From a virus: a stretch of 42,368 bases of DNA. Below, one piece after another: positions 21,967 to 41,633 of the stretch (position 1 is its first letter; each line of letters opens with the position of its first letter). The notes beneath the pieces were generated by a model. It searched no databases. It saw nothing but the letters and a program-made list of their open reading frames with translations, and was not told the DNA's origin. The DNA is taken from IMG/VR virus record IMGVR_UViG_3300036826_000094, positions 1 through 42,368 of that record. The stretch is one strand, 5' to 3'. The translations under genes were made by a program, and so were the position numbers.

Positions 21967-22152
21967 TCAGCGGGTGCGGCCGTCGTCGCGGCGCAGCACC
22001 GCGGCCAGCCGGCGTTCCAGCAACCCCAGCGCTTCGCGCACATTGCGTGACAGCCGCATTTGCAGAATCCCGAGGATGCTCCGATAGGCATCGTCGAGGG
22101 CGGCCTGCATCTCCGGATACGACAGGCCCTTTGGCCCGGGCCGGCGCGTCAT
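21967..22152 (-). CDS. First small gene of the leftward operon
   Basis: A 61-aa protein. The ATG at 22152 has GGAG six bases before it; an ATG four codons earlier would place that ribosome site inside the gene. The sequence RRPGPKGLSYPEMQAALDDA followed by YRSILGILQMRLSRNVREAL is helical with a basic C-terminus. Function unknown. It is the first gene read from the PL promoter about 310 bases upstream. Confidence 0.55.
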   Translation of the reverse strand: MTRRPGPKGLSYPEMQAALDDAYRSILGILQMRLSRNVREALGLLERRLAAVLRRDDGRTR

Positions 22153-22460
22153 GTTTTTCTCCATCGTGATTGGTTATTATCTGGACGCGCGATACGGTTG
22201 GTCTCGCTATCGTTTCACAGCGCGTTGATGTCGGATTGACGGGCGATAAACGGTCAGGCGCCGAATCGTTGGCAAGCTGGCTGGGAAAGCCGCTTGGTCG
22301 TCGGGACGGCTCGGTTACTCTCGCTTGATGACAGGGAGGCAGGCGGCCAGCACCGCTCCCGCTACCTAAGATAGAGCCGGAGGCAGCATGCCCAGCCGAT
22401 CCGCCAGCGCCGTTGTGTTTGCCGTCCATGAAGGTGGCCTCGCATCAGGTGATGGAGGCT
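22153..22460. other. Long leader of the leftward operon
   Basis: About 300 bases lie between PL and the first leftward gene. No minus-strand gene is evident. On the plus strand a frame starts at 22388 behind a good ribosome site (ggagg) and could encode 85 aa to 22645, but most of it lies antisense to the operators and the repressor, so it is doubtful. The leader could hold an antitermination or regulatory RNA site; none is recognised. Confidence 0.45.
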
Positions 22461-22489
22461 GTCTTAGCAGAGCTAAGCGGATAAGTCAA
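22461..22489 (-). promoter_or_regulatory. Putative PL promoter of the leftward early operon
   Basis: On the minus strand TTGACT (22489-22484) and TAAGAC (22466-22461) are separated by exactly 17 bases. The -35 matches consensus at five of six positions and the -10 at three. The operator at 22463-22477 covers the -10. The same arrangement, with -10 TAAGCC, occurs at the divergent PR. Confidence 0.6.
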
Positions 22490-22512
22490 AGGGAAAGATT
22501 AGCGAAATTAAG
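22463..22512. promoter_or_regulatory. Left operators OL1 and OL2
   Basis: Two 15-bp sites of the form CTTA-N7-TAA(G/T). OL1 at 22463-22477 (cttagcagagctaag) is a near-perfect palindrome. OL2 at 22498-22512 reads cttaatttcgctaat on the minus strand. Between them is a partial match starting cttatccgc. The same motif occurs at OR, so one repressor probably controls both sides. Confidence 0.65.
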
Positions 22513-22531
22513 CGGGCTGCTTAATGGTCCG

Positions 22532-22915
22532 TCAGGAGACGATCCGGCGACGATCCATTTCGTGGCGCTGGCTCTCTGGAACCTGGCTGAGCTCGGTTCC
22601 AACCTTCAAGAGTTCCCGGTAAATATCCTGCTGCCTTTTAGATAGACTGCGATACAGTATAACGAGGCTGATTTCGTGCGGATTATCAAGCACCAGCTGA
22701 TCGGCTGGTGTCGGTTCGCCGAGTAGTTCTGACGGCCGAATTCCCAAGACCCTGGCGACTTCCACCAGGTTCGATGTCTTAATGCCGCCTTTACCACCGC
22801 CCCCGCCTTCCCATTGCGCGACGGCGCTTTTATCGACGCCCAGAAGCGCCGCGAGGACGCGTTGCGTCAACCCCGCCTTGACACGCGCAGCACGAATCCG
22901 GTCGCCGATGTTCAC
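22532..22915 (-). CDS. CI-like HTH repressor
   Basis: A 127-aa protein if it begins at the GTG at 22915; longer in-frame starts up to 23020 would place coding over the operators. The N-terminus NIGDRIRAARVKAGLTQRVL, then LGVDKSAVAQWE and VEVARVLGIRPSELLG, is a canonical XRE helix-turn-helix. The C-terminal part (LVLDNPHEISLVILYRSLSK) is helical and lacks the LexA-type Ser-Lys peptidase, so induction is not by classical self-cleavage. An oddity is a run of Gly/Lys (EGGGGGKGG) inside the HTH domain. It is divergent from the Cro-like gene and flanked by operators on both sides. Confidence 0.8.
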   Translation of the reverse strand: MNIGDRIRAARVKAGLTQRVLAALLGVDKSAVAQWEGGGGGKGGIKTSNLVEVARVLGIRPSELLGEPTPADQLVLDNPHEISLVILYRSLSKRQQDIYRELLKVGTELSQVPESQRHEMDRRRIVS

Positions 22916-22939
22916 CGGGATAAAGTGGACTGCCCGCGG

Positions 22940-23000
22940 CTTATCCGCAGTCAGCAAAAAGCCGGGCGACGACTTGCGCTCATCGCTTAATACTGCTAAG
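22940..23000. promoter_or_regulatory. Right operators OR2 and OR1
   Basis: OR2 at 22940-22954 (cttatccgcagtcag) and OR1 at 22986-23000 (cttaatactgctaag) share CTTA-N7-TAAG with the sites at OL. OR1 overlaps the -10 of PR; OR2 lies closer to the repressor gene, where it could control repressor synthesis. Confidence 0.65.
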
Positions 23001-23002
23001 CC
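22974..23002 (+). promoter_or_regulatory. Putative PR promoter, leaderless
   Basis: TTGCGC (22974-22979), a 17-base spacer, then TAAGCC (22997-23002). The Cro-like ATG is at 23009, about where transcription would start, so the transcript would be leaderless. No ribosome site precedes that ATG, which agrees. OR1 lies over the spacer and -10. Confidence 0.55.
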
Positions 23003-23008
23003 AGTGGG

Positions 23009-23218
23009 ATGCGCGATCAATGCCTTGACCGCCTGATGCAGATCCGCGGCGCGACCAAGCGCCTGGCCAGGGAACTAGGCATCTCGACGGCTGCCGTCTC
23101 GCAGTGGGAGCGCGTGCCGCGCGACCGCGTGGTGGAAGTCGCTGCCATCCTGGGCGTCTCGCCCGAAGAACTGCGGCCTGATCTGTATCGCACAGAAGAA
23201 CCAGCGGAAGCCGCCTGA
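23009..23218 (+). CDS. Cro/YdaS-like HTH regulator
   Basis: A 69-aa protein with a compact helix-turn-helix: RGATKRLARELGISTAAVSQ followed by WERVPRDRVVEVAAILGVSP. This is the YdaS-like Cro type, where the second helix pair reads 'GISTAAVSQW'. It is divergent from the repressor and begins the rightward early operon. It would bind the CTTA-N7-TAAG sites and reduce repressor synthesis. No ribosome site is seen before the ATG, consistent with a leaderless message. YdaS homologues are also known as toxin-antitoxin-like prophage regulators, but a YdaT partner is not recognised. Confidence 0.75.
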   Translation: MRDQCLDRLMQIRGATKRLARELGISTAAVSQWERVPRDRVVEVAAILGVSPEELRPDLYRTEEPAEAA

Positions 23219-23272
23219 TGTCCTGACCTGACAGCCGCGCGTCGGGGCACGCGCAAGGAGGGAGAGAACGCC

Positions 23273-23323
23273 ATGGCATCGCTCAATAGCCTCCCCGTCA
23301 CGCCGTGTCTGGACGTGCGGTGA
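23273..23323 (+). CDS. Possible 16-codon leader peptide
   Basis: A perfect ribosome site (aaggagg, 23255-23261) lies 11 bases before ATG at 23273, which opens only 16 codons (MASLNSLPVTPCLDVR) before TGA at 23323. The GTG of the next HTH gene starts four bases after the stop. It may be a coupling peptide for that gene. No function is known. Confidence 0.35.
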   Translation: MASLNSLPVTPCLDVR

Positions 23324-23326
23324 ATC

Positions 23327-23740
23327 GTGGATGATTGCCTCACTGTTCTGACTGCCGCGTTCCGCGCCTTCGGCACCGCCAAGCAACTGGCCCGCGCCGG
23401 CGGCTGCTCGGTGCCCACCGCACAACGCTACCAGCGCGGCGAAACCACCCCGGACGTGCTCACCCTCGCGCGCCTGATGGCGCAGTCACGCGCTATCGCT
23501 GACGCTATGCTGCGCCTCGCCGGACTCGATGACCTGTCGCTGGACATCGAGCAAGCGCGCCTGGTGCGTTCCCTGGCTGATCTCGAGCAGAAGAGGCTCG
23601 CGGCACATGAAGCTTTGGAACGCGCTCGCGCGTCGCATCGCGCTCATCCGGGCGGCCTTGGCGCAGCGCCGGGCATCGCGGGAGTTCGAGCGGGCGAGGC
23701 GGCTGGCGCAGGCGGCCGCGCGACGGAGCCCGCGCCATGA
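23327..23740 (+). CDS. HTH protein of the early rightward operon
   Basis: A 137-aa protein with a GTG start. Residues 10-60 (FRAFGTAKQLARAGGCSVPT, AQRYQRGETTPDVLTLARLM) form a helix-turn-helix of a kind widespread in alphaproteobacterial phages (S..TAQR..RGET.P). A helical linker and a Gly/Ala-rich tail follow. In the shifted frame, an ATG at 23607 opens MKLWNALARRIALIRAALAQ, which could be a separate small gene, so the true end of this protein is less certain. It overlaps the next gene start (ATGA). Probably a regulator. Confidence 0.65.
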   Translation: MDDCLTVLTAAFRAFGTAKQLARAGGCSVPTAQRYQRGETTPDVLTLARLMAQSRAIADAMLRLAGLDDLSLDIEQARLVRSLADLEQKRLAAHEALERARASHRAHPGGLGAAPGIAGVRAGEAAGAGGRATEPAP

Positions 23741-24141
23741 GCGGGGAGTGGATGACCACTGAGAACGTGCGCCGCGGCCGCGCGATGTGGGACGCGGGCG
23801 TGTCGGTGCGCCGCATCGGCGCCGCACTCGGCTGCTCGCATAATGCCATCATCGGGTTCGCCCGGCGCTCGGGCTGGCCGCCGCGGCAGTCGCCGATCGC
23901 GAACGCTCCGCCGCGCCGCCAGCCGGCCCCCGCGGTAACCGCCCGGCCGCCATCGCCTCCGGTCCCGCCGGCACCACCATCGCCGTTTCTGTCCGTGCGC
24001 AGCTGCCAGTGGCTTGAAGGCAACGACCGTCGGAGTTGGACCATGTGCGGCGCGCCCGCGGTGCAGGGATCCGCGTGGTGCGCGGACCATAGGGCGCGCG
24101 TCTACACCCGCACGCCGAGCCGCATTGAGCCCATATCATGA
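23737..24141 (+). CDS. GcrA-like cell-cycle regulator homologue
   Basis: A 134-aa protein built like GcrA of Alphaproteobacteria. The N-terminal HTH has RRGRAMWDAGVSVRRIGAA and LGCSHNAIIGFARRSGWPPR. A Pro-rich linker spans residues 58-84. The C-terminal motif has CQWLEG at Cys90, Cys104, then WCADH with Cys115 and His118, and a VYTRT end. GcrA binds sigma70 RNA polymerase and prefers promoters with adenine-methylated GANTC. A phage copy could redirect cell-cycle transcription. The genome also carries a ParB-linked DNA methylase. The start overlaps the previous stop (ATGA). Confidence 0.8.
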   Translation: MSGEWMTTENVRRGRAMWDAGVSVRRIGAALGCSHNAIIGFARRSGWPPRQSPIANAPPRRQPAPAVTARPPSPPVPPAPPSPFLSVRSCQWLEGNDRRSWTMCGAPAVQGSAWCADHRARVYTRTPSRIEPIS

Positions 24142-24410
24142 CGGCGCGCGCGTGGACCGCAGCGGAACAACGCGACGCGCTGCGCTGGCGGCTTGAACTG
24201 CGCATGAGCCTCGGCGAGATCGCTGCGGCGCTCGGGCGCTCGGAGAAGAGCGTCGAGGTCGCATTGTACCGCATGGGCTATTCCGCCGCGTCGCATCGCG
24301 AATACGACCAGTTGCACGCCAGGACGGCGCTCGATGTGGAGATCGCCCGCGCCCGCGAGGAGTGGGACACCGCTAAACCGTTCAAGCCGGGGCGAATCGA
24401 GTGGGCATGA
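24138..24410 (+). CDS. Small SANT/HTH-like DNA-binding protein
   Basis: A 90-aa protein overlapping the GcrA-like gene stop. The N-terminal half reads RAWTAAEQRDALRWRLELRM, then SLGEIAAALGRSEKSVEVAL and YRMGY. This is a Myb/SANT-like tri-helical fold with the typical 'WTxxE...IAxxLGRSxxSV' signature, often found beside GcrA-like proteins in phages. The C-terminal half is charged and helical. It may work with the GcrA-like protein on DNA. The precise function is unknown. Confidence 0.65.
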   Translation: MTARAWTAAEQRDALRWRLELRMSLGEIAAALGRSEKSVEVALYRMGYSAASHREYDQLHARTALDVEIARAREEWDTAKPFKPGRIEWA

Positions 24411-24991
24411 GCGGCGGGATCCTGGCGCTCGACCTCGCCTCCACCACCGGGTGGGCCTACGGCACGCAGGCGTGTGCAGCCCCCGAGGTGGGAACATGGA
24501 GGCTCGGTAAGGGATCAGAGGTCGCCCGTATGGGGGCCTTTGGTTCCGAATTATCTGATTTCGTAAGGGCGCATCGCCCGTCCGTCATTCTGCTCGAGGC
24601 GCCGATCTCGTTTCGCGTGATGCGACGCTTCGCGGATGCCGCGCAGCAACTCGGGTTGCGGGCCGTTGCAATGGCCATCGCCTGGCAGAACGAGACGCCG
24701 TGCCATGAGATCGAATGCCTGCGTGTGCGGGCCGAGATGCTCGGCAGCCGCAACTTTCCCAGGGGCGAGGTGAAGGGCGTGGTCATGGCGTATTGGCAGC
24801 GCCGTGGTGTGCCAATGCCAGACCACAACGCAGCGGACGCGGCGCTGATGTGGGAGTGGTATCGTTTGCGACTGACGGGCAAGCCGCCGCCTTTGGTGCT
24901 GGCGCCTGTTCGTCTCTCGCCGGGGCTGAGCATGCGGCGGAGCCGGGCGAGCATCGTGCGGGAAAGCGATATCAGGAGGATACATGCTTGA
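24407..24991 (+). CDS. RuvC-like Holliday-junction resolvase
   Basis: A 194-aa protein. The RNase H-fold acids are visible in the RuvC order: ALDLASTTGWA (Asp9), VILLEAPISF (Glu64), then MPDHNAADAALMWEW (Asp139 and Asp144). Between them lie a helix and a strand typical of phage RuvC-like nucleases that resolve branched DNA before packaging. The ATG at 24407 overlaps the preceding stop; a GTG two codons earlier is possible. Its C-terminus is basic (MRRSRASIVRESDIRRI). It overlaps the next gene by eight bases. Confidence 0.78.
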   Translation: MSGGILALDLASTTGWAYGTQACAAPEVGTWRLGKGSEVARMGAFGSELSDFVRAHRPSVILLEAPISFRVMRRFADAAQQLGLRAVAMAIAWQNETPCHEIECLRVRAEMLGSRNFPRGEVKGVVMAYWQRRGVPMPDHNAADAALMWEWYRLRLTGKPPPLVLAPVRLSPGLSMRRSRASIVRESDIRRIHA

Positions 24992-25688
24992 TCAGTTGAC
25001 CAAATCGACGAAGGAGACCCCTAGGCGGCTCAAAATTCCGGCGATGAGCGCCGAGGAAATCGCCGCCTCGGCGAGGCCGGAGATCGTCCGCATCTCGCCG
25101 CCAAAGCTGCGCACCGCAACGATCTCCATCCGCGGCATTACGCCCTATGTCCAGCACGCATTTTCCGAAAAGCAGCGCAAGCAGATGGAGGACACGCAGC
25201 GCGCCGGCCAGCAAAGCCGCGGCAAGAGAGTGCGCAAGCCGAAGGATTTCGAGGCGGTTTACGAAGCCGCCAAGCACTACAGCGAAGAAGGCTGGATTGG
25301 TATTCCGGCGGCCGCCTTCCGCAAGGCATGCATCGCTGCCTGCCGCTTGGTCGGCTTCAAGATGACGCACGCCAAGCAGGCGATATTCATCCAGGGGGAC
25401 GGTCTCGACCGCAACGACGGCACGCCCCTGGTGCGTATCGTCGGCGAGCCACGCATTCACGAAATGCCGGTGCGCAACGAGAGCGGTGTGGCTGACATCC
25501 GCTGGCGGCCGATGTGGGAGCAATGGAGTGCGGCGGTGCGCGTGACCTGGGACGAGGATCAGTTCTCGGCCACCGACGTGTTCAATCTGATGATGCGAGC
25601 CGGGCTGCAGGTAGGCATTGGCGAGGGACGCCCCAGCTCGCCCAACAGCGACGGACTGGACTGGGGCCGTTTCGAGGTGCTCGAATGA
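24984..25688 (+). CDS. Conserved replication-region protein
   Basis: A 234-aa protein. It has an N-terminal basic tail, then ISIRGITPYVQHAFSEKQRK, a Lys-rich linker (RGKRVRKPKDF), EEGWIGIPAAAFRKACIAAC, VGFKMTHAKQAIF and a C-terminal AGLQVGIGEGRPSSPNSDG. This pattern is conserved in temperate phages next to recombination and replication genes. It has no established function; a RAMP-like or nucleic-acid-binding fold has been suspected for such proteins by context only. It overlaps both neighbours (ATGA at the 3' end). Confidence 0.65.
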   Translation: MLDQLTKSTKETPRRLKIPAMSAEEIAASARPEIVRISPPKLRTATISIRGITPYVQHAFSEKQRKQMEDTQRAGQQSRGKRVRKPKDFEAVYEAAKHYSEEGWIGIPAAAFRKACIAACRLVGFKMTHAKQAIFIQGDGLDRNDGTPLVRIVGEPRIHEMPVRNESGVADIRWRPMWEQWSAAVRVTWDEDQFSATDVFNLMMRAGLQVGIGEGRPSSPNSDGLDWGRFEVLE

Positions 25689-26134
25689 GCGAACGAGTTG
25701 AAACCATCGCCGCCGAATTGCTGCGACTGCGCACCGGTGACGGCAGGATATGCGCCCCTGACGCAGTCAGATGGGCGCGTGAGCATCCGGAGTCACGGCT
25801 GCATGCGTCGTTGCAATGGGACGATGCGATCGCCGGAGAGGCGTACCGCGTCTGGCAGGTGCGCACGCTGATTGCGGTGCATATCGTGGATGCGGAAGGC
25901 GCGCGGCGATTTGTATCGCTCTCGATTGATCGCGCTGAAGGCGGGTACCGGCAGATCAGCGACGTGATGCGCAGCCGCGATATGCGCGCGGTGATGCTGA
26001 GCGACGCATTGGCCGAGTTGGAACGCGTCCAGAGGAAATATCGGCATTTGCAGGAGCTTGATGTGGTTTGGGCGGCGCGGGACAAAGTTTCGCGCCGTTC
26101 GAAGGCGTCCGTCGTGGATGATGCGGCGGACTGA
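25685..26134 (+). CDS. Conserved phage hypothetical protein
   Basis: A 149-aa protein starting at the ATG that overlaps the previous stop. The pattern ICAPDAVRWAREHPESRLHA, LQWDDAIAGEAYRVWQVRTL, RFVSLSIDRAEGGYRQISDV and ALAELERVQRKYRHLQELDVV is common to small phage proteins placed in this position. It is largely helical. Function unknown. Its stop is followed directly by the pentanucleotide array. Confidence 0.65.
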   Translation: MSERVETIAAELLRLRTGDGRICAPDAVRWAREHPESRLHASLQWDDAIAGEAYRVWQVRTLIAVHIVDAEGARRFVSLSIDRAEGGYRQISDVMRSRDMRAVMLSDALAELERVQRKYRHLQELDVVWAARDKVSRRSKASVVDDAAD

Positions 26135-26135
26135 C

Positions 26136-26395
26136 GTGGCTTGGCATGGCGAGGCAAGGCACGGCCCGGCGTGGCTCGGCAGGCTCGGCAGGGCAGGCGT
26201 GGCGTGGCGGGGCACGCTTTGGCAGGGCGTGGCCCGGCGGAGCAGGGCAGGCTCGGCATGGCAGGGCACGGCGTGGCTTGGCAAGGCGGGGCAGGGCAGG
26301 CTCGGCATGGCAGGGCTCGGCTGGGCGTGGCAAGGCGGGGCGTGGCATGACAGGGCAGGCGTGGCCCGGCTGGGCTTGGCAAGGCGCGGCAGGGC
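26136..26395 (+). repeat. About 260-bp GGCNN pentanucleotide array
   Basis: On the plus strand GGC recurs every five bases for nearly the whole stretch (ggcat, ggcga, ggcaa, ggcac, ggccc ...), about 50 units with a few one- or two-base phase shifts. Only the last two bases of the unit vary. G far exceeds C on this strand. Frames on both strands remain open merely because of composition, and no real gene is seen. Paired G runs could fold or form R-loops. Confidence 0.85.
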
Positions 26396-26413
26396 TAGTT
26401 GTCCGATGACGCT

Positions 26414-26435
26414 CGCTCGCTGGCCGAAGCGAGCG
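26414..26435. terminator. 8-bp stem hairpin after the array
   Basis: The arms cgctcgct and agcgagcg flank a six-base loop. There is no T run after it, so a simple intrinsic terminator is doubtful. From here to 26635 no certain gene is seen. The endonuclease frame is open from 26399, and an ATG at 26465 is a possible earlier start. A second stem (cacccc/ggggtg) occurs just before the endonuclease ATG. Confidence 0.4.
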
Positions 26436-26635
26436 TGCCGACAGGCCCAGAAGGCGACGGGCCAATGACGTTGCAGGAACCGTGGAATCCGGCCATAATA
26501 CGCATTGAGCGCCGTGCGGGAAACACGACGCTCAACTGTAACTTTCACAACTGCCGGTTGGGCAGCGATACGCTCAGGACCTCAACACCCCTGAATGTAA
26601 AGCACCCCGAGGGCAGAGCGCAAGGGGTGTGTCTC

Positions 26636-27469
26636 ATGAGGAATGAATCGGCGGAAGCCAGGGCCAGGCGACTGGCGGGACAAGCGCGGTGGCGCAAAGC
26701 TAATCCTGGGTATCACCAGAAATGGCGTAAGGCTCACCCCAAGGTCGAATCTAAGCTGGGACCGGACTATTACAGACAGTGGCGCAAAGCGCATCCTGGA
26801 TATTCCAGCAGATACAGCGAGAAGAATAAGGCGAGGAAGGCGCTTTGGCGTGCCAGCCCAGAAGGCAAGGCGGCTCAAGCCGCATTGCTGGCTAGTCCAG
26901 AATACAAAGCCAAATGGGCCGAGATACGTGCGACCCCGGAATACAAAGCCAAGTTGGCGGCCTATCGGGTAGCCAACCGTGGAAAAATCAAAGCTGGCAG
27001 AGCTGCTTACCTCGCCAGCCCAAAAGGCAAAGCATATAAAGAACGAGCTAAAGCAAAGAATCTGGCCTATCAGCTAAAGCCTGAGGTAAAGGCGGCGCGA
27101 AACCTTCGTAACAAGAAGCGCTATGCTGCCATTCATACAATAAACATTAGTCGCCGCATGTCGAGTGCGGTCCGTAGTTCTCTCCGAAGATATTCGGACA
27201 AGAATAAATCGTGGAACACTAAATGGATCGGTCTGGTCGGCTACACTGTTGCGGAGTTGTGCGCCCACATCGAACGGCAATTCCTGCCGAAAATGGGTTG
27301 GCACAACATGCCGAAATGGCATGTTGACCACATAGTCCCACTTGCATCGTTTCGCTACATATCGGAGACCGATCCAGAGTTCAAGGCGGCCTGGGCTTTG
27401 ACAAATCTGCGGCCCATCTGGGCTGCGCAGAACTTTAAAAAACACGCGCGGCGGGAGTTCTTGCTGTGA
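26636..27469 (+). CDS. HNH homing endonuclease with repeated DNA-binding units
   Basis: A 277-aa protein preceded by aaggggtg about seven bases before its ATG. Residues 20-160 contain repeated basic units (WRKANPGYHQKWRKAHP, ASPEYKAKWAEIRATPEYKA, LASPKGKAYKERAKAKN) that probably contact DNA. The C-terminal part is an HNH nuclease: GYTVAELCAHIERQF, WHVDHIVPLASFRY and FKAAWALTNLRPIWAAQN. It has noticeably more A and T than its neighbours, suggesting recent arrival. It sits directly before a dnaA-like gene, with its stop overlapping that gene's GTG. Confidence 0.82.
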   Translation: MRNESAEARARRLAGQARWRKANPGYHQKWRKAHPKVESKLGPDYYRQWRKAHPGYSSRYSEKNKARKALWRASPEGKAAQAALLASPEYKAKWAEIRATPEYKAKLAAYRVANRGKIKAGRAAYLASPKGKAYKERAKAKNLAYQLKPEVKAARNLRNKKRYAAIHTINISRRMSSAVRSSLRRYSDKNKSWNTKWIGLVGYTVAELCAHIERQFLPKMGWHNMPKWHVDHIVPLASFRYISETDPEFKAAWALTNLRPIWAAQNFKKHARREFLL

Positions 27470-27861
27470 GCCGCCGTCATGTGTGCGCCCACTCGCTGGG
27501 CCTTTGGTGCCAGGAAGTCTGGGCGTATCCGGTGTCTCCAAAAATCGCCGTTATCCAGGCCGCCGTAGGCGCCCGCTGGCGCGTCTCGGTCGCCGACCTG
27601 CAGTCGCGCCGGCAGAGCCGGGCGGTGGTCTGCCCGCGCCACGTCGCGATGTGGCTCGCCCGGCATCTGACGCCGGCATCCCTGCCCGAGATCGGGCGCG
27701 CATTCGGCGACCGCGACCACACCACGGTGATGCACGCGCTGGCGCGCATCGATCAGCGCATGGCCGAGAGCCCGCTGTTCGAGGGCGTGGTGCTGGACTT
27801 GGCGGAGCAGCTTTCACCCATAGCCGGCGCCGAGCAGCGCGCCATCAGGAGGGCGGCATGA
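27466..27861 (+). CDS. DnaA domain-IV-like DNA-binding protein
   Basis: A 131-aa protein if it begins at the GTG overlapping the HNH stop; a GTG at 27532 (109 aa) may be the original start. The sequence RVSVADLQSRRQSRAVVCPR, HVAMWLARHLTPASLPEIGR and AFGDRDHTTVMHALARI reproduces the C-terminal DnaA domain, including the DHTT signature that contacts DnaA boxes. No AAA+ domain is present. Such short proteins occur in phages beside replication initiators and could bind origin DNA or compete with host DnaA. It overlaps the next gene (ATGA). Confidence 0.78.
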   Translation: MSRRHVCAHSLGLWCQEVWAYPVSPKIAVIQAAVGARWRVSVADLQSRRQSRAVVCPRHVAMWLARHLTPASLPEIGRAFGDRDHTTVMHALARIDQRMAESPLFEGVVLDLAEQLSPIAGAEQRAIRRAA

Positions 27862-28727
27862 GCAACGGCAACGGGCACCATTGGTCGAAGTTTTGCTGGC
27901 GCGACTGGCAGACCGATGACGGCCTGCGGAACTGCAGCCTGGCTGCTCGGGGGTTCTGGATGGAGTGCCTGGCGGTCATGCACCGGGCAACTCCGATCGG
28001 GCATCTGGTTATGAACGGTAAGGCGATGACGCCCAAGCAACAGGCGACGAATGCCGCCTGCACGGAGCGAGAGGCGGTGAAGCTGCTCGCTGAACTGGAA
28101 GCAGCCGGCGTGTTCAGCCGCACAGCCGAGGGTGTCATCTACTGCCGGAGAATGGTCAGGGACGCTGCCGCATCAGAAGCGGGCAAGGAACACGCTATGA
28201 AGCGCTGGGGGACCTCCGACCCTAATAGGGACCCTATAAGCCCCCCTAATAGGTCAAATGGACAATCCCCCATTGGCCCCCCCAATGGGGACCCCAATGG
28301 GGACCCCAATGGGGACCCCAATGCGGACCCCAATGCTAAGAATCAGAGTCAGAGTCAGAGTCAGAAAAAGAACCCTCCCGTAGCCCTCCCACGCGGTGGG
28401 AGGGCTGCAGGCACCCCGCCCAGCGGGGACCCCGCCAACGCGAGCGCTCAGATCGTCGATATCGCAACGAAAACCCCCAGAGAATCCGGCACCAACCCCC
28501 GAGCACTCGGCGCAAACCCGAGAGCAACGGGCACAAATCCACGCGCCAACGGCACCAACGCCCGCGCCAAACCCACCCGGTTCGCCGGCTGGAGCGTGGC
28601 CGAGGCCCAGTGCGACGCCCGTGCCGGCCCGGTCATCAACGCAACCGCCGAATCGGGTCTGCCACACGACAACCTCAACGATTACGGCCTCGTCCCGCCA
28701 GCCCCGCTGAGGATCACCAATGGCTGA
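27858..28727 (+). CDS. Phage replication initiator (DUF1376/HTH type)
   Basis: A 289-aa protein. The N-terminal ~115 residues carry a winged-helix-like replication domain: WSKFCWRDWQTDDGLRNCSL, AARGFWMECLAVMHRATPIG and AAGVFSRTAEGVIYCRRMVR. A low-complexity part follows, with tandem NGDP units (residues 141-156), a Gln/Ser run and later NPRA(T/N)GT repeats (220-240). In lambda-type initiators the origin iterons lie inside the initiator gene; the 12-bp DNA repeats at 28280 fit this plan. It starts in an ATGA overlap with the DnaA-like gene and overlaps the next gene by eight bases. Confidence 0.72.
   Translation: MSNGNGHHWSKFCWRDWQTDDGLRNCSLAARGFWMECLAVMHRATPIGHLVMNGKAMTPKQQATNAACTEREAVKLLAELEAAGVFSRTAEGVIYCRRMVRDAAASEAGKEHAMKRWGTSDPNRDPISPPNRSNGQSPIGPPNGDPNGDPNGDPNADPNAKNQSQSQSQKKNPPVALPRGGRAAGTPPSGDPANASAQIVDIATKTPRESGTNPRALGANPRATGTNPRANGTNARAKPTRFAGWSVAEAQCDARAGPVINATAESGLPHDNLNDYGLVPPAPLRITNG
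28280..28339. repeat. 12-bp tandem repeats, iteron-like
   Basis: Three exact copies of ccccaatgggga (28280-28315), one copy with one change (28316-28327) and a partial fifth (28328-28334). Related strings (cccccattgg) lie just upstream. They sit inside the replication initiator gene, as origin iterons do in lambdoid phages. Confidence 0.8.
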
Positions 28728-29187
28728 CCGGTCCCGCGTCGATGCCTGGCTGATCGACCTCGGGCGTCTCACCTCGGCTCGAATCACCGCCGAAGACGCC
28801 ATGGAGTTCGTCGATCGCTACGCCCCTCTGCTCGCCCAGCGTTTTTCCGACAGCGCCTTCTCCCGCGCCTCAGCCGAGCATGTCGCCGCCGAGTGCAAAT
28901 TCCTGCCAACCTATGGCGAGATTGTCGCCCTCCTGCGCACCTTCCGTCCCAAGTCCCTCGCTGCGGTCTTCGCCCTCAGCGACAACATCGGCCTCAGCCC
29001 CGATGCCCGCTGCTGGGTTAATTATTACGAGACCCGACGCGCCGAGGACTTCGCCCCGCTGCGCGAAGACGACGGCCGCCTCGCCAGGCCCGAGATCACC
29101 AACTGGGAGGCACACACCGCCAACCTGATCCGCACCAACTGCCCGGAAGCCTGGGATTACCTCTGCGGCAAGCGAGGCGCCGCATGA
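28720..29187 (+). CDS. Conserved protein, possible helicase loader
   Basis: A 155-aa protein overlapping the initiator gene by eight bases. It is helical: VDAWLIDLGRLTSARITAED, RYAPLLAQRFSDSAFSRASA, EHVAAECKFLPTYGEIVALL. Proteins of this kind follow the initiator in many temperate phages and occupy the place of the lambda P helicase loader. No nucleotide-binding motif is present. The loader role is inference from gene order. Confidence 0.55.
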   Translation: MADRSRVDAWLIDLGRLTSARITAEDAMEFVDRYAPLLAQRFSDSAFSRASAEHVAAECKFLPTYGEIVALLRTFRPKSLAAVFALSDNIGLSPDARCWVNYYETRRAEDFAPLREDDGRLARPEITNWEAHTANLIRTNCPEAWDYLCGKRGAA

Positions 29188-36963: not shown

Positions 36964-37842
36964 ATGGCCGACAATCAGCAGCTCGACGGCTTCCTGGCCG
37001 CAGGAACGCCTCCAGAGGCGCCCGAGGCTCGAGGCGCACCCGAACCACCGCCGGAGGCTCAGAAGCCGGTAGAGGCCGCTCCCAAGCCGCTGGCACCCAT
37101 TCCGAAGCCCGAGGCCCCTAAGGCCAAGGAGCCCGAGCCCGAGCCGGAGGACGATACCGGCTTGGACGGCGGGACCATGGTGCCGTTTGGCGCCCTCGAG
37201 AAGGCCCGCAACGCCCGCAATGATTGGAAGAGCAAGGCCGCCGCCGAGAAGGCCAAGGCCGATCTGCTGGCGCAGCAGCTTGAGGAACTGAAGCGCCAGC
37301 CGGCCGCACCGCAGGCGCCAGCCCCCGCAGCCCCATCGGTCATGCAGTTTCAGGCCCTGCCCGATTTTGCCACCGACCCGAACGGCTGGGCGCAGGTCAT
37401 CGTCGCCAATCAGCAGCGCGCACTGCTCAACGAGCGGTTGAACCACAGCGAAGCGCTGGTGCGCGAGCGGATCGGCGCGGAGGAACTGGCGCAATACATC
37501 GCCGACTTCAAATCTGCCGCCGAGCAGGAGCCCACATTGTGGGGTAAGTTATATTCGCAACCGTCGCCCTATGCGTGGATGACGAAAGAGGTCGATCGGC
37601 TGCGCAAGCGGGCCGAGATCGGCGACGATCCGGCGGAGTATGAAAAGCGGTTGCGCGCGAAATGGGAGGCCGAGCAACAGGCCGCTACGCCGCAGCCCGC
37701 GCCGGTCTCGCCTGCCGCCGGGATGGCGCCCTCGTTGGCCGGCGTGCGCAGCATGGCCGCGCGCGGCAGCACGCCGTTCACCGGACCGCCTTCACTCGAT
37801 GAACTCTTCCGGCGTCCCGACAAGCGCGCCTCACGTCACTGA
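36964..37842 (+). CDS. Scaffolding protein
   Basis: A 292-aa protein between portal and capsid genes, the usual scaffold place. A Pro/Glu-rich N-terminus (residues 15-60) is followed by a Lys/Ala/Glu coiled coil (PFGALEKARNARNDWKSKAA, EKAKADLLAQQLEELKRQ; 72-110), a helical middle part and a conserved end with LAGVRSMAARGSTPFTGPPS. Such acidic-to-helical proteins guide capsid assembly and leave before DNA enters. No protease motif is present. Confidence 0.78.
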   Translation: MADNQQLDGFLAAGTPPEAPEARGAPEPPPEAQKPVEAAPKPLAPIPKPEAPKAKEPEPEPEDDTGLDGGTMVPFGALEKARNARNDWKSKAAAEKAKADLLAQQLEELKRQPAAPQAPAPAAPSVMQFQALPDFATDPNGWAQVIVANQQRALLNERLNHSEALVRERIGAEELAQYIADFKSAAEQEPTLWGKLYSQPSPYAWMTKEVDRLRKRAEIGDDPAEYEKRLRAKWEAEQQAATPQPAPVSPAAGMAPSLAGVRSMAARGSTPFTGPPSLDELFRRPDKRASRH

Positions 37843-41325: not shown

Positions 41326-41633
41326 TGACGCCGGGCGACGACCTCAGCTTCGGCGGCGTGACCACGACCTCGCCGGACGACGGGCTGGATTTCGGCGGCT
41401 ACCCGCAGCCTTCGCCGATCCCGCCCGACCCGACCGGGGAGGGCTGGCGCGGCCCACAGGGAATCCCAGGCCCACCGGGACCGGCTGGAAAAGACGGCGA
41501 GGACGGCGAGGACGGCGAGGACGGCGAGGACGGCATCTCATTCCTCTCAGGCACAGGCCCGCCGGCTGGTGTGCAACCCGTAGGGACGACATATCTGGAC
41601 GCATCGACGGGCGATCTATGGGTCTATACTTAG
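41325..41633 (+). CDS. Collagen-like fibre protein, upstream half
   Basis: A 102-aa protein overlapping the adaptor stop (TGATG). An acidic N-terminus (DDLSFGGVTTTSPDDGLDFG) is followed by collagen-type GPQGIPGPPGPAGKD and four GED units coded by a 9-bp tandem repeat, then PPAGVQPVGTTYLDASTGDL and a stop after WVYT. A fibre of this kind usually continues with a further collagen part. That continuation is found at 42120 in the same frame, after the opposite-strand HNH gene. It is probably the front of a split gene. Confidence 0.7.
   Translation: MTPGDDLSFGGVTTTSPDDGLDFGGYPQPSPIPPDPTGEGWRGPQGIPGPPGPAGKDGEDGEDGEDGEDGISFLSGTGPPAGVQPVGTTYLDASTGDLWVYT

Follow-up and report, generated by a model that had tools for sequence, protein, structure and literature searches.

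A GGCNN repeat array next to a vipr gene in a phage genome is very probably a VIPR guide array

The 260-bp GGCNN array in the window, i.e. the whole 42,368-nucleotide stretch of viral DNA that was analysed, is very probably a vrRNA guide array of a phage VIPR system, with a silencing role that would follow by homology. VIPR is a recently described relative and proposed ancestor of CRISPR which consists of the RAMP protein Vipr, an accessory gene and RNAs made of GGY/NN repeats, and it is thought to serve phages against rival phages by silencing their genes (PMC13142463). In these vrRNAs the GGY is kept and the NN is hypervariable, with 9-16 repeats per guide; the NN pair with double-stranded DNA while one base is skipped in between (NNxNNx...), usually the wobble base of a codon. 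The vipr gene adjoins a vap gene and long non-coding intergenic guide regions, mostly in phage or prophage genomes (PMC13142463). As judged from sequence, membership of the window locus in VIPR is well supported by the array, the protein family and its fold, the gene order, the co-occurrence across phages and the module periodicity. The locus is a new addition to this recently described kind: its copy is full and compact, and about five guides can be read from it. By homology, it would probably act in the RNA-guided silencing of competitors. The features concerned are the following.

24984..25688, + strand: vipr, encoding a 234-aa single-domain RAMP with RRM core and C-terminal G-loop GIGEGRPSSPNSDGLDWGRFEV; guide-RNA partner by homology
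25685..26134, + strand: accessory gene, candidate vap, 149 aa, phrog_15946, between vipr and the array
26128..26181, + strand: putative guide 1, (CT GT) TT AT GA AA AC CC GT TC, then GGCA; from sequence, spacing and the junction at 26178
26182..26195, + strand: 14-nt remnant GGCTC GGCAG GGCA between two junctions
26196..26249, + strand: putative guide 2, GT GT GG AC TT AG GT CC GG AG, then GGCA; from sequence, spacing and junction
26250..26298, + strand: putative guide 3, TC AT AG AC GT TT AA GG AG, then GGCA; from sequence and junction
26299..26357, + strand: putative guide 4, TC AT AG TC TG GT AA GG GT AT AG, then GGCA; from sequence and junction
26358..26395, + strand: putative guide 5 (last), GT CC TG TT AA GC AG, running into GGCTAGT, with no GGCAGGC junction
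26411..26436, + strand: 8-bp stem-loop directly 3' of the array, CGCTCGCT...AGCGAGCG; predicted fold

The array of about 50 units described in the first-pass annotation is real and had been placed correctly to within 2 nt. Its GGC chain comprises 48 units at 26138-26395 on the + strand (50 GGC in the whole region), with spacings of 5 nt (41 times), 4 nt (five times) and 10 nt (three times), and each of the 10-nt spacings is due to a single mutated GGC, by which the scaffold is lost. The autocorrelation that had been proposed as a check amounts to 0.65 at lag 5 and 0.58 at lag 10, and 41 lag-5 GGC pairs were observed in the 260 bp, compared with 3.3 on average and 5 at most when the window was simulated 200 times with a second-order Markov model. 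While GGC is held, the NN elements do vary freely as had been claimed, 12 of the 16 dinucleotides being used and TA being absent among the spaced units. No second GGCNN array occurs elsewhere in the whole window. The earlier view that phase shifts are freely tolerated, in contrast, has to be abandoned: all five 4-nt steps (26178, 26192, 26246, 26295 and 26354) are the identical junction in which a GGCA unit is followed directly by GGC, and therefore do not represent random slippage.

The array is intergenic and starts 3 nt past the stop codon of the preceding accessory gene, which itself falls within one or two degenerate array units (GGACT GACGT), so that the first one or two units of guide 1 overlap this stop. 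The region might be taken for a gene encoding a low-complexity protein with a G-x-A-x-x pentapeptide repeat, which we consider very improbable. As five is not a multiple of three, all three frames give the same repeat and such a gene would tolerate frame shifts; two of the three + frames are open, ORFs of 87 and 136 aa cross the array, and some phage annotations list a hypothetical protein at the array. However, when 113 arrays from Vipr loci were checked, every + frame was closed in 19 and a single + frame was open in 27, and the junctions keep a nucleotide rather than a codon grammar, which agrees with the former proposal that the 5-nt rhythm is maintained for nucleic acid and not for protein.

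The reading as a vrRNA guide array draws in the first place on the protein encoded two genes upstream, which ends in the glycine-rich loop. This protein belongs to phrog_4652, the same PHROG as Vipr of the Escherichia phage SUSP1, to which it is similar by BLASTP (E 3e-8) and hhalign (probability 99.8%). A profile built from 67 homologues retrieved PDB 36pp, the SUSP1 Vipr protein, with an E-value of 2e-40 and nothing else below 0.2. In its AlphaFold2 model (pLDDT 90) all Foldseek matches at E<0.001 belong to type III or type VII CRISPR complexes, as RAMP subunits of the Csm3/Cas7 type, and the leading structural alignments with this type reach Z 11.5 over 148 residues at 3.6 A. Sequence and model thus agree in identifying the product as Vipr, a small RAMP with predicted RRM core and G-loop. 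The fold is shared with Csm3/Cas7 of type III CRISPR, and Vipr and Csm3/Cas7 have in common a G-loop and a thumb which hold the guide RNA and interrupt pairing periodically (PMC13142463). In contrast to type III CRISPR, the window locus has no CRISPR repeats or cas operon, but a single small protein and a predicted gapped two-base code; a tandem-repeat scan revealed no CRISPR repeat-spacer array at the locus, and neither Pfam cas nor PADLOC matches were obtained among the locus genes tested.

The accessory gene overlaps vipr by ATGA, both reading frames being intact. Its AF2 model (pLDDT 94) shows an N-terminal winged-helix-like arrangement followed by C-terminal helices, and finds weak matches only, many of which are winged-helix DNA-binding domains (residues 2-96, Z about 5), faintly suggesting that the protein may bind DNA. 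Among the collected loci, 45 of 46 accessory homologues (the window copy included) lie in loci with vipr. Of the genes vap1-6, SUSP1 vap1 was compared with it; BLAST detected no similarity, and the hhalign probability was 0.4%. The gene is best regarded as a candidate vap of a family other than SUSP1 vap1.

To survey phages for the same kind of array, as the first-pass annotation had proposed, IMG/VR was scanned with a pattern of seven GGC at 5-nt spacing. At least 120 loci matched, showing that such arrays are common in phages. Although these loci were picked by DNA pattern alone, 83 of the 120 listed encode the Vipr family, with array and vipr on the same strand in 81 of the 83 and a median gap of 14 bp. 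The frequency in bacterial genomes was 5 out of 120, which is a rough control only, as those loci were picked with a longer pattern and may include simple tandem repeats. Since most phage matches to the GGCNN pattern alone turned out to carry Vipr, raw sequence allows such arrays to be detected and decoded. The 37 IMG/VR loci with no detected Vipr (e.g. L009, L037 and L113) may be cut contigs, contain a divergent Vipr or represent unrelated repeats. BLAST with the array DNA finds the phages Quico, Florinda, Cy-LDV1 and Pipp, and tblastn with the Vipr protein finds the same phages. As many independent contigs and sequenced phages have arrays beside the same gene, an assembly artefact was ruled out.

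The F1 mycobacteriophages Quico, Florinda, Donkeykong and Brocalys, the Gordonia phages Pipp and ODay and the cyanophage Cy-LDV1 carry a Vipr of the same clade as the window (31-51% identity) and share with it the accessory family and the GGC/NN arrays. They differ from the window in their hosts and guides, and their proteins are annotated as hypothetical only. The position of the array also differs, as it lies upstream of vipr in Quico and directly after vipr in Pipp. GGCNN arrays are themselves annotated as hypothetical proteins in Pipp (gene 43, L262:4614-4883) and in Florinda (37481-37662).

These neighbourhoods bear on the earlier suggestion that the array is a replication origin, a replication primer region or a recombination hotspot, where a G-rich repeat would open or pair DNA. 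A resolvase-like gene upstream, an endonuclease VII-like gene downstream and a local positive GC skew would fit such a role. The partner gene, however, encodes a RAMP RNA-binding protein and not a replication or recombination protein, and arrays of unrelated phages adjoin this gene even where, as in ODay, the array sits among tail genes. The array is indeed strand-asymmetric, but the local excess of G is the array itself, and the cumulative GC-skew minimum lies near 32 kb, away from it. In addition, iteron-like repeats are found elsewhere, and we give an origin or hotspot role hardly any credence. The half-helical-turn period noted in the first-pass annotation appears coincidental, the unit being one RNA repeat read by Vipr in the published mechanism (PMC13142463). 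The iteron-like repeats at 28280-28335 comprise 4.7 copies of the 12-bp unit CCCCAATGGGGA within ORF 27483-28727, for which no PHROG or Pfam match was obtained; as a candidate origin they are more plausible than the GGC array.

For a vrRNA guide array, the course of events that we infer from the published system (PMC13142463) comprises RNA production, DNA binding, the skip rule and silencing. Transcription of the operon, from the + strand, would include the array. In the resulting RNA, Vipr would hold the GGC units as scaffold, and the NN would serve as two-base guide elements which are matched to double-stranded DNA and leave out one base in between, usually the wobble base. Genes of competing phages or prophages would be bound and silenced by Vipr carrying such an RNA, and RNA-DNA hybrids would arise at the target and not at the array. 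A scan of 22000-27600 for sigma-70 promoters gave no + strand site, which is uninformative for this host, and an Rfam search of the whole window gave no match.

In 21 loci of the clade GGCAGGC junctions tend to lie 44, 49, 54 or 59 nt apart (5n+4), corresponding to a module of 8-11 five-nt units plus one 4-nt unit, and in several relatives GGCAGGC ends the array at its 3' side and is followed by unrelated sequence. The recurrence of junctions every 44-59 nt together with their presence at the 3' ends of arrays suggests that a guide has its 3' end at GGCAGGC. With this delimiter the window array would hold about five guides of 7-11 units each, arranged head to tail and without tails. Read from the sequence alone, the module size is 9-11 units in guides 2-4, and guide 5 is shorter; the junction spacing of the clade comes near the 9-16 repeats that have been published for a vrRNA (PMC13142463). 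Guides 3 and 4 have TC AT AG ... AA GG in common, so that one may have arisen from the other by copying and retargeting. The junction grammar also suggests how multi-guide arrays can be cut into guides, which is needed for target prediction.

The SUSP1 locus (KT454805.2, minus strand; vipr at 28474-29061 and vap1 at 28031-28471) served for comparison, its vipr having been recognised by gene order, size and flanking GGT/NN repeats. Both loci are phage-borne and have the order vipr, accessory gene of 146-149 aa and downstream GGY/NN array. They differ in the scaffold, which is mostly GGT in SUSP1 and GGC in the window, and in the family of the accessory protein. Moreover, SUSP1 has a structured tail per guide and one guide upstream, whereas the guides of the window are tail-less and follow the GGCAGGC junction. 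Of the traits of type II (SUSP1/P. fulva), one of the seven published VIPR types (I-VII), both vap1 (by BLAST and hhalign) and a structured 3' tail per guide are absent from the window, in which a single hairpin follows the last array unit and the guides stand head to tail. Going by its sequence features, the window VIPR therefore falls outside type II, taking SUSP1 vap1 and tails as the definition. The hairpin might possibly be a 3' end, processing or stability element, but the evidence is weak, as its folding z-score is just -0.84 and no common 3' tail or hairpin was seen after the arrays of relatives.

It is conceivable, although we hold this only tentatively, that the clade represents a distinct VIPR architecture, with one tail-less multi-guide transcript, the GGCAGGC junction as sole delimiter resetting the phasing of Vipr, and an accessory protein of winged-helix-like type that has no relation to SUSP1 vap1. 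Should guides terminate at the junction, the 5n+4 grammar would take over the role of tails and of processing signals. A tail-less multi-guide architecture may already be covered by the "staggered arrays with overlapping vrRNAs" of PMC13142463.

A true member of VIPR could also have decayed, its guides matching no circulating target and its scaffold mutations weakening the array. Guides 2 and 4 contain three mutated scaffold units (GCTTT, AGCAG and GACAG), two of these degenerate units being in guide 2, and in addition there is the 14-nt remnant and the failure of target scans to find a convincing target. On the other hand, the vipr and accessory reading frames are intact with their ATGA overlap, 41 spacings are perfect, and close relatives have similar scaffold errors in much longer arrays. 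An inactive array is therefore rather unlikely, though less so than the protein gene or the origin.

In 381 guides (3,873 NN) the NN composition is best matched by codon positions 1-2 in phage genes, with both strands mixed 56:44, ahead of positions 2-3 by 0.038 and of positions 3-1 by 0.171 log units per NN. This agrees with a derivation of the guides from coding DNA in which the wobble base is passed over, although composition is no proof by itself. Exact NNx scans of IMG/VR, limited by exact matching and by a host that is only hinted at, gave 0 matches for guide 2, 1 for guide 4, 7 for guide 3 and 23 for guide 1, none of them convincing. In nearly all 23 matches of guide 1 the NN coincide with codon positions 1 and 2, but any in-frame match dictates the peptide concerned, and the matches, three of them in a portal-like segment (YYKTLLDTGVFSIN), were rejected as they lie in unrelated proteins of mostly low-GC phages. 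The candidate for guide 4, on one contig of 33% GC, was likewise rejected, as about this number is expected by chance. In 2.6 Mb of the collected loci, which is too little sequence to inform, matches at skip 1 were no more frequent than with shuffled guides.

A GcrA-like regulator gene at 23737-24141 (Pfam PF07750, E 2e-10) hints at an alphaproteobacterial host. An NNx scan of 385 genomes around an alphaproteobacterial centre, allowing one mismatch, gave one chance-like match, with one mismatch, and the same genomes contain only one Vipr, a distant one. Guides common to relatives were also compared with IMG/VR (1 and 7 matches, not convincing). The related phages L256 and L257 share one guide with 19 of 20 NN bases kept and scaffold units mutated in L257, and three F1 mycobacteriophages have most of one guide in common. 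Such single guides common to related phages (L256/L257; L129, L264 and L265), next to neighbouring guides that differ, are expected of guide turnover. On the - strand of L080 several arrays are split by a near-constant GGGAGCAGCAGCATCCGGCGYAAAGGGATGGAC after GGCAGGCAC, which looks like an inter-guide tail. Finally, the window contains a perfect 9-bp tandem repeat, GACGGCGAG, in 4.7 copies at 41493-41534.
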